A stretch of 64,000 nt of DNA from Sneathiellales bacterium. Lineage in GTDB: Bacteria > Pseudomonadota > Alphaproteobacteria > JANQFL01. The stretch is from NCBI GenBank assembly GCA_028277845.1, contig JANQFL010000110.1, positions 1-64,000 on the forward strand, in the 5' to 3' direction. The position numbers and the translations under genes were made by a program. Below are positions 33,015-35,252 of this stretch, piece after piece. Position 1 is the first letter of the stretch, and the number at the start of each line of letters is the position of its first letter. A model generated the notes under the pieces. That model was given only the letters and a program-made list of their open reading frames with translations. It was not told where the DNA came from and searched no databases.

Positions 33015-35252
33015 TCAAATCAACGCCGCGTCGGTCATGACCTCGACCAACGCCGGGCCGTCGTGGGCCAGCACCTGCTGGATGGCATCGCCCAACGCAT
33101 CCGCTGTCTCCACCCGCACGCCGTAGCCACCGCAGTTGCGGGCGAATTGGGCGAAGTCGGGGTTTTGCAGGGCGGTCTGCCAGACCGGCCAGTTGCCGGC
33201 CCGCTGCTCCTTGGAGATTTTGCCGAGTTCGCCGTTGTTGAGCAGGATATGCGTGAGGTTCATGCCGTACTTCACGGCCGTGGTGAACTCGCCCATGTAC
33301 TGGCCGAAGCCGCCGTCACCGCTGATCGCCAGCACCGGCCGGCCCTGGTGCGGGCCGGGGACCTGGGTTGCCGCCCAGGCGCCGATGGCGGCGGGCAGGC
33401 AGAAACCGATGGAACCGAGATAGCCCGACATCAACACCGACTGCCCCTTGCATTCGAAATAGCGGCCGAACGAATAAGTGTTGTTGCCGACATCAACGGC
33501 GATGACCGCGTCTGCGGGGCAGAGGTCGGACAGCGTCGCGAACACGGCCGCCGAGGAGATGCCCGAACTGCCCGTCTTGATCGCCCGGCGGGCCTTCTCG
33601 TCGCGCCACTGCCGCCAGCGCTCGGCCAGTTCGGCACGGGCATCAACGGCGGGCGTTTCGGCGGGCAGGGCGTTCATCATGCGTGATGCCGTGACGCCGA
33701 TCTCGCCCCACACAGGCACGTCGACGCCGTGGAACTTGCCCAGGGCCATGCGGTCGAAATCGACCTGGATGATCGGCTTCTTGGCTTCGATGCCGGTGTG
33801 GTTGGAAAACGATGCGCCGAACACGATCAACAGGTCGGCGCCGTTCATGGCCCAGCTCGCGACCGGCGTGCCGCTGCGCCCCAGCACCCCGGCGGCCAGA
33901 GGGTGATCGTCCGCAATCTGGCCCTTGGCCTTGAAGGTGGTCAGCACCGGCGCGTTCAACCGCTCGGCCAGTGCCGTGATCGCCGCCATGGAGTCGCGGG
34001 CACCGTAGCCGACGATGATGGCCGGATGTTCCGCCTGGGCGATCCTGTCCATGGCCTCGTTCAGGGCGTCGTCGGGCGGGGCGATGGCGGTGGCGCTCAA
34101 GCGGCCCGCAGGGCCCGAAGCCTCGGCACCGTCCTCCGCGGGGATTACCTGCACTTCGTCGGGGAAGATCAGGTGGGCGACATCGCGCTCGACGACGGCG
34201 TGTTTGAGCGCCAGCGTCATCAGCTCGGCATGTTTGCTGCCCGGCAGGACGGTCTGGCTGAAGCGGCTCACCGCCTCGAACGCCGACGAGAGATCGATTT
34301 CCTGGAACGCACCGGGGCCGAACACCTGGGTGTTGACTTGGCCGGTCAAGGCCAGCACAGGTGCGCGGTCCACTTTGGCGTCCCACAGGCCGGTGAGAAG
34401 ATTGGTGGCGCCGGGCCCGGCAATCGTCAGGCAGGCGGCCGGCGTGCCGGTCAGCTTGGCGTAGCCCGAGCAGGCGAAGGCCGCGGCGCCTTCGTGACGG
34501 ATGCCGATGAAGGTGAGTTCGCCCGCCTCCTCGCGCACCCGGATGGCGTCGGCCAGGCCAAGATTGCTGTGCCCGACCATACCGAACACGTGGCTGACGC
34601 CCCAGTTGACCATGGTCTCGGCCATGACGTCGCTGACGGTGCGGACGCGCTCGCGCCGTTCCTTGATCTGCACGTAGATACCATCGTCGCGCACCTCGAG
34701 CGGATAGGTGTCGGCCTTGTCGTCCATGCCCTCGGGCGCCTTGCCGGTGATCGGGTCGAAGTCCCAGCCGTGCCACGGACAACGCAGCCAGCAATCACCC
34801 TTGTCGTCGCAGTCGATGGTGCCTTCGCCCAGCGGCCCGCCCTGGTGCGGGCAGGCATTGTCCAGTGCGCCGAACGCGTCGCCCAGCCGGGTCAGGGCGA
34901 TGGTCTTGGACCCGGCCTGCACCGCCCGCACTTCGCGGTCGGCCAGGTCGTCTGGCCCGGCCACCTTGACCCAGACGGTTTCCAGACCCTGATCGGCGTC
35001 CAGGTCTTCCTGGGTGATGCGCTTATGGCTGCCGTCGCAATAGGGCGGCTTGCCGGTGCGTTTGCACTGACACAGGAACTGCCGTCCGTCCTCCTCGACC
35101 TTGAACACCACCGGCTTTATGCCGGAGCCCTTGTGCGAGCCGTCGCAGAACGGCTGGGTCCTGGACCGGCCGCAGGCGCACCAGGCGTAGTTCTTGCCGG
35201 CTTTCAGCTCGACGGGCGCGGGTTTGGTGTCGGCGATCTTGGCGTCTGTCAT
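33015..35252 (-). CDS. Fusion: two CDGSH iron-sulfur motifs + Rieske [2Fe-2S] domain + ThDP-dependent enzyme (acetolactate synthase/pyruvate oxidase-like)
   Basis: CACGRSRTQPFCDGSH; CQCKRTGKPPYCDGSH; CPHQGGPLGEGTIDCDDKGDCWLRCPWHGWDF; GIRHEGAAAFACSGYAKLTG; GDGGFGQYMGEFTTAVKYGMNLTHILLNNGELGK. Confidence 0.88.
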   Translation of the reverse strand: MTDAKIADTKPAPVELKAGKNYAWCACGRSRTQPFCDGSHKGSGIKPVVFKVEEDGRQFLCQCKRTGKPPYCDGSHKRITQEDLDADQGLETVWVKVAGPDDLADREVRAVQAGSKTIALTRLGDAFGALDNACPHQGGPLGEGTIDCDDKGDCWLRCPWHGWDFDPITGKAPEGMDDKADTYPLEVRDDGIYVQIKERRERVRTVSDVMAETMVNWGVSHVFGMVGHSNLGLADAIRVREEAGELTFIGIRHEGAAAFACSGYAKLTGTPAACLTIAGPGATNLLTGLWDAKVDRAPVLALTGQVNTQVFGPGAFQEIDLSSAFEAVSRFSQTVLPGSKHAELMTLALKHAVVERDVAHLIFPDEVQVIPAEDGAEASGPAGRLSATAIAPPDDALNEAMDRIAQAEHPAIIVGYGARDSMAAITALAERLNAPVLTTFKAKGQIADDHPLAAGVLGRSGTPVASWAMNGADLLIVFGASFSNHTGIEAKKPIIQVDFDRMALGKFHGVDVPVWGEIGVTASRMMNALPAETPAVDARAELAERWRQWRDEKARRAIKTGSSGISSAAVFATLSDLCPADAVIAVDVGNNTYSFGRYFECKGQSVLMSGYLGSIGFCLPAAIGAWAATQVPGPHQGRPVLAISGDGGFGQYMGEFTTAVKYGMNLTHILLNNGELGKISKEQRAGNWPVWQTALQNPDFAQFARNCGGYGVRVETADALGDAIQQVLAHDGPALVEVMTDAALI

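Follow-up and report, generated by a model that had tools for sequence, protein, structure and literature searches.

The minus strand of the window (the whole stretch of 64,000 nucleotides analysed here) encodes a single polypeptide in which two CDGSH motifs, a Rieske domain and a ThDP-dependent enzyme are joined (Table 1). Judged by sequence comparison, this protein is a member of a widespread and uncharacterised Rieske-ThDP family, at 54-75% identity. In our reading, to which we give a probability of about 50%, it is an unstudied Rieske-ThDP oxidoreductase built on the core of pyruvate oxidase and pyruvate:quinone oxidoreductase (PQO), from which electrons would exit via the Rieske domain and in which the CDGSH pair would be a swapped-in port.

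Table 1. Coordinates of the fusion gene, its modules and associated genes (positions in the window unless a locus is named).
Feature	Position	Strand	Basis
CDS, tandem-CDGSH / Rieske / ThDP enzyme, 745 aa	33015..35252	−	Open frame, Pfam, relatives, structure model
N-terminal tandem CDGSH module, residues 1-80, type 6 CISD-like	35013..35252	−	Pfam, PDB match, spacing
CDGSH motif 1, CACGRSRTQPFCDGSH, C25/C27/C36/H40	35133..35180	−	Sequence; ligands kept 9/9
CDGSH motif 2, CQCKRTGKPPYCDGSH, C61/C63/C72/H76	35025..35072	−	Sequence; ligands kept 9/9
Rieske domain, residues 94-195, like soluble Rieske ferredoxins	34668..34973	−	Pfam; PDB 1vck
Rieske ligand motif CPH...CPWH, C134/H136/C158/H161	34770..34853	−	Invariant in 50/50 aligned members
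TPP_enzyme_N, residues 205-322; catalytic Glu254 at 34491-34493	34287..34640	−	Pfam; PoxB alignment
TPP_enzyme_M, residues 398-523, aligned with FAD site of pyruvate oxidases	33684..34061	−	Pfam, residue mapping, invariance
TPP_enzyme_C, residues 587-738, GDG...NN ThDP/Mg motif; Lys678 at 33219-33221	33039..33494	−	Pfam
Upstream acyl-CoA dehydrogenase (AidB-like), 104 bp gap	35357..37156	−	Pfam
Tandem CDGSH-glutamate synthase (type 5 CISD) genes	L038:12254-13768, L050:12316-13860		Directly downstream of CDGSH-Rieske-ThDP gene

One reading frame encodes the complete fusion

The frame of 745 codons runs without interruption from the ATG at 35252 to the stop codon at 33015-33017 (−). The Pfam search returned two zf-CDGSH stretches, Rieske, TPP_enzyme_N, TPP_enzyme_M and TPP_enzyme_C, all above the curated cut-offs, and the same complete architecture was found at full length in eight relatives (L038-L044 and L050), whose hosts are mainly gammaproteobacterial MAGs together with one tubeworm endosymbiont. 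Over the first 90 codons, substitutions between the window gene and its relatives fall mostly at codon position 3 (0.49-0.78 per site, versus 0.21-0.32 at position 2) and this third-position bias matches that of the enzyme core, indicating translation of the CDGSH part in this frame and purifying selection on it. Since eight relatives share the whole architecture, all cluster ligands are kept and selection acts over the CDGSH part, an artefact of sequencing or frame is rejected; a chance motif was likewise ruled out by the Pfam matches, the full-length relatives and the codon-position pattern. A longer start at ATG 35408 (797 aa) overlaps the upstream gene and finds no support in the relatives. 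In the AlphaFold2 model of the 745-aa protein, computed from a 50-sequence alignment, all domains are folded (mean pLDDT 91.4, pTM 0.80).

These results are in agreement with the initial annotation, which had described the fusion with both CDGSH signatures intact, an intact Rieske motif and a full-length ThDP module with catalytic Glu and GDG...NN; the frameshift that it had named as a possible refutation was not borne out. In the literature searched, no paper on a CDGSH/Rieske/ThDP fusion was found.

The CDGSH module and the Rieske domain

All eight CDGSH ligands are retained in the nine tandem-CDGSH sequences (the window protein and its eight relatives). The two zf-CDGSH stretches were matched by Pfam at 2.9e-18, and the top PDB match of the module was 3tbn, a two-motif bacterial CISD (2e-27), followed by human CISD3 (6avj). 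Between its two 3Cys-1His sets lie 20 residues (H40 to C61), which is also the distance between the motifs of type 6 CISDs (PMC3174974). The main text of two CDGSH surveys (PMC3174974 and PMC5859297) makes no mention of thiamine and describes no CDGSH type fused to Rieske-ThDP. The window genome also encodes a tandem CDGSH protein that stands alone (L143, G000:C2:229500-234000); it matches the fused module at 46% and is closer to other stand-alone CISDs than to the fused one. In a small tree, the fused CDGSH modules were placed apart from stand-alone CISDs (79/90 support).

The Pfam Rieske match covers residues 94-173 (2.6e-15), with the C-x-H ... C-x2-H ligands set within a Rieske fold. The PDB match of this part was the CarAc ferredoxin 1vck (8.7e-11), soluble dioxygenase-type ferredoxins being the nearest proteins.

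The ThDP core and its flavin site

Residue E254 aligns with E50 of E. coli PoxB and, like the ThDP/Mg residue D646, is retained in 50/50 aligned family members. With its ThDP fold, catalytic Glu and GDG...NN motif, the core conforms to the pyruvate-oxidase fold, and the enzymes closest to it use FAD (pyruvate oxidase of E. coli, PQO of C. glutamicum). The scores stayed below the cut-offs of the NCBIfam pyruvate oxidase models PRK09124 (308.7 vs 792 bits) and PRK08611 (386 vs 742 bits) and of the acetolactate (acetohydroxyacid) synthase model TIGR00118 (276.7 vs 538 bits). In the VIA-align comparison, the top ranks lay close together (HKA synthase, Z 42.7; E. coli pyruvate oxidase, 42.6; C. glutamicum PQO, 41.5), with acetolactate synthases also near the top.

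This equal nearness to non-redox enzymes argues against electron transfer, and would suit a non-redox carboligase or decarboxylase in which the Rieske and CDGSH clusters sense the redox state or oxidants and switch the activity. The lability of NEET clusters also counts in favour of such a sensor, as do genes of a stress type near some loci of the family (LysR, pirin, DsrE, glutathione S-transferase family and Old Yellow Enzyme). We consider it unlikely, because Fe-S modules of the same kinds are found on neighbouring enzymes and there are recurrent dedicated membrane cytochromes, which electron transfer explains better than sensing does.

The initial annotation had further proposed that no flavin takes part. 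This claim is unproven, since the core is nearest to FAD enzymes and its counterpart of the FAD site is largely kept: in the segments of the window protein that align with the FAD site of E. coli PoxB, G455, G458, S460, G461, G479, S481, F482 and D498 (window protein numbering) were invariant in the sequence alignment, and the site appears conserved but altered. A contrary sign is found at the position of PoxB Phe465, an aromatic residue near the flavin that is linked to ThDP-flavin electron transfer, which is Lys678 in 50/50 aligned family members and Phe or Gln in the paralogues. This invariant Lys, and the fact that the family brings its own one-electron carriers, would be expected if electrons passed directly from the ThDP intermediate to the Rieske and on to the CDGSH clusters; given the conserved FAD-site segments and the FAD-dependent redox relatives, such a direct chain seems quite improbable.

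Spread of the Rieske-ThDP family and its module variants

Members of the family are annotated merely as 'thiamine pyrophosphate-binding protein'. The window genome most likely belongs to the Alphaproteobacteria, since L010, which lies in a genome of its class (G142), has a core identical to that of L056 from 'Alpha proteobacterium Mf 1.05b.01'. Among 289 genomes of the class, 11 others hold relatives with 60-68% identity over Rieske and ThDP; the remaining matches reach 30-37% over the ThDP part alone, leaving a sharp gap below the family, which on this comparison is a clear orthologue group. A wider genome scan yielded 80 further loci (59-73% identity) in Pseudomonadota, Acidobacteriota, Cyanobacteria, Planctomycetota, Gemmatimonadota, Nitrospirota, Myxococcota and other phyla, and the enzyme was also detected on haloarchaeal plasmids (60-61%) and on a Mycobacteroides plasmid (54%).

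The majority of the 92 loci examined encode Rieske-ThDP only, while nine carry the tandem CDGSH module and seven (L009, L012, L014, L019, L048, L078 and L096) a CDGSH-Fer4_19-CDGSH extension. In the scheme of PMC3174974 the former is type 6 and the latter the CDC subtype of type 7. As two distinct CISD types are attached, modules must have been acquired at least twice, or swapped once. Quick trees, rooted on an outgroup with a long branch, disagreed and scattered the tandem-CDGSH rows; one clade uniting all the tandem-CDGSH enzymes was not rejected (AU test, p 0.75).

Neighbouring genes and candidate redox partners

In about 30 of the 80 loci, the Rieske-ThDP gene adjoins a gene in which a Rieske domain is fused to a glutamate-synthase (GltS) FMN domain with a 3Fe-4S cysteine motif. 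In about 12 loci there is a gene for a cytochrome-b-like membrane protein that joins a ferric-reductase-like transmembrane domain to a Rieske domain (the cytochrome-Rieske protein), together with an unnamed partner. A DUF5996 gene lies near Rieske-ThDP in 19 loci (L057:9195-10061 among them), a Na+/H+ exchanger in 12-13 and a flavodoxin-like FMN reductase in several. No paper on DUF5996 or on a Rieske/GltS/ThDP cluster was found in the literature searched. On the haloarchaeal plasmids L168 (8994-14682) and L170, Rieske-ThDP is accompanied by a Na+/H+ antiporter and/or Rieske-GltS, and on the Mycobacteroides abscessus plasmid (L169) by a cation:proton antiporter and an FMN reductase. Pirin and DsrE recur on the Haloferax plasmid (L167), without the antiporter or Rieske-GltS. 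A Haloferax neighbour named 'dihydrolipoyl dehydrogenase' was discarded as a clue to RclA-like chlorine stress, its best PDB match being mycothione reductase.

Within the 289 genomes, Rieske-GltS (8 genomes) and the Rieske-only ThDP enzyme (7 genomes) coincide in 6 (p = 2.5e-10, kinship ignored). The cytochrome-Rieske protein was found in 21 of 37 genomes with the Rieske-only enzyme and in 0 of 16 with the CDGSH enzyme, the window's included (p = 4e-5, kinship ignored and many genomes being MAGs, perhaps incomplete). In two of the tandem-CDGSH relatives (L038 and L050), the GltS-type enzyme adjoining CDGSH-Rieske-ThDP bears a CDGSH pair in place of the Rieske domain, and in L050 the CDGSH modules of the two enzymes are mutual best matches with 76% identity. 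The unexplained type 5 CISDs may have a partner in CDGSH-Rieske-ThDP. The window genome itself lacks both the GltS partner (best match 38%) and the cytochrome-Rieske protein.

The CDGSH module could instead be a [2Fe-2S] cluster donor or iron-handling appendage standing outside catalysis, in line with the cluster transfer by mitoNEET-type proteins described in PMC5859297 and PMC8463382. For this we see a slim chance, as the module adjoins the Rieske domain, recurs on GltS and is mutually exclusive with the membrane cytochrome-Rieske protein. The GltS-type partner bears in addition on the direction of electron flow. GltS-type enzymes normally consume electrons and Fe-S domains can work in both directions, so that the modules might feed a ThDP/FAD centre for reductive carboxylation or reductive activation; with potentials of about -150 mV for Rieske and about 0 mV for CDGSH clusters, too high for driving reductive carboxylation, this inward flow is highly improbable.

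Two further kinds of membrane protein were observed. Genes for Ferric_reduct with a C-terminal Rieske domain (L108:12575-14397, L084, L103, L115, L065, L066, L075, L076, L087, L095, L102 and L051) are followed by a gene for an 'FVGYL' membrane protein, which has no confident Pfam match and carries a conserved Cys/His motif (L084 copy); the two look like an undescribed membrane electron-transfer pair. In a Rhodopirellula locus (L093:8675-9772), a protein with rubredoxin, transmembrane segments and two CXXCH haem motifs is encoded immediately before the Rieske-ThDP gene, whose product has an N-terminal hydrophobic stretch. This rubredoxin-membrane-dihaem cytochrome c is a possible electron conduit from cytosol to periplasm.

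The window's own neighbouring genes gave no functional clue to the fusion enzyme. The adjacent acyl-CoA dehydrogenase gene, to which the initial annotation had drawn attention, is indeed on the same strand; a functional link was not upheld and the gene was rejected as a partner, since it does not recur near the relatives and lies outside the conserved system. A gene for an AraC-type regulator with a DJ-1/PfpI domain (37375-38286, +) adjoins it in the opposite direction. On the other side, two similar adjacent 104-aa genes at 29703-30376 (−), of which the copy at 30062-30376 matches YCII-related, are apparently a tandem duplication, and a frame at 30864-31601 (+) that matches the C-terminal half alone (227-408 of 413) of a TRAP transporter DctM subunit is probably a gene remnant.

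Proposed mechanism and significance

The most likely role of the Fe-S domains is to carry electrons to or from the pyruvate-oxidase-like ThDP core. This is supported by the full architecture, the conserved ligands, the redox neighbours with matching modules and the electron-releasing nature of the nearest fold. The built-in electron chain suggested by the initial annotation is therefore retained as far as the role of the Fe-S domains is concerned (Rieske and CDGSH, with rubredoxin and cytochrome neighbours); the oxidative decarboxylation, substrate and electron order that it had attached, and likewise the cluster content, electron direction and partners of the Rieske-ThDP enzymes, are inferred.

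In the Rieske-ThDP oxidoreductase that we favour, a 2-oxoacid or similar carbonyl compound would form an adduct with ThDP, the carbanion/enamine would be oxidised, and electrons would pass, possibly via FAD, to the Rieske [2Fe-2S] cluster and then to a partner. For the Rieske-only members, the likely acceptors would be Rieske-glutamate-synthase (FMN, 3Fe-4S) and the ferric-reductase-like membrane cytochrome with Rieske. The tandem CDGSH of the window protein and its kin would lengthen the chain and, as a swapped-in port, open it to other partners; for at least two of the relatives this partner is presumably the adjacent CDGSH-glutamate-synthase enzyme. Where a lineage lacks the membrane Rieske cytochrome, the pair may serve as an additional or alternative port. 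A broader view, put forward tentatively, is that of a new class of ThDP 2-oxoacid oxidoreductases in Bacteria and Archaea with an exchangeable N-terminal Fe-S 'plug' (Rieske, Rieske with the CDGSH pair, or Rieske with CDGSH-Fer4_19-CDGSH), for which the GltS-like flavoenzyme of the operon carries the match; 2-oxoacid oxidation might in this way be coupled to a flavoenzyme or membrane cytochrome of its own.

CDGSH (NEET) proteins matter in medicine, and the role of their clusters is debated. Here CDGSH is covalently tied to an enzyme that would have a measurable turnover, and the same module is found on a neighbouring flavoenzyme, so that the carrying of electrons by CDGSH could be tested directly. 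ThDP enzymes of the pyruvate-oxidase branch are to our knowledge so far restricted to flavin, quinone or O2, and this branch would gain Fe-S-wired members. The results would also point to an unstudied redox gene cluster common to bacteria and haloarchaea.

Comparison with known systems

PoxB and C. glutamicum PQO are similar to the window protein in ThDP fold, catalytic Glu, ThDP motif and FAD-site framework, at 26-28% identity. The window protein differs from them in the added N-terminal Rieske and CDGSH modules, in Lys678 where PoxB has Phe465, and in its C-terminus, since the model stops at the residue aligned with PoxB 531 and is devoid of PoxB's membrane-binding tail. Pyruvate:ferredoxin oxidoreductase (PFOR) follows the same principle of ThDP chemistry feeding an Fe-S chain, but has an unrelated domain layout, [4Fe-4S] clusters and CoA dependence, and none of the PFOR families was matched by the window protein in Pfam.

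Among the CISDs, the type 7 CDC subtype (CDGSH-DUF1271/Fer4_19-CDGSH) corresponds to the extension of the sister architecture and not to the window module. The latter is like type 6 CISDs (MmCISD 3tbn, human CISD3) in tandem motif, spacing and sequence, but these are usually small separate proteins, whereas the window module is fused to Rieske-ThDP. Type 5 CISDs combine tandem CDGSH with a glutamate synthase FMN domain (PMC3174974). Pfam detected no such C-terminal domain in the window protein, which has Rieske and TPP domains, while type 5 CISDs have another catalytic domain and lack Rieske; in both, the tandem CDGSH module is an N-terminal extension of an enzyme.
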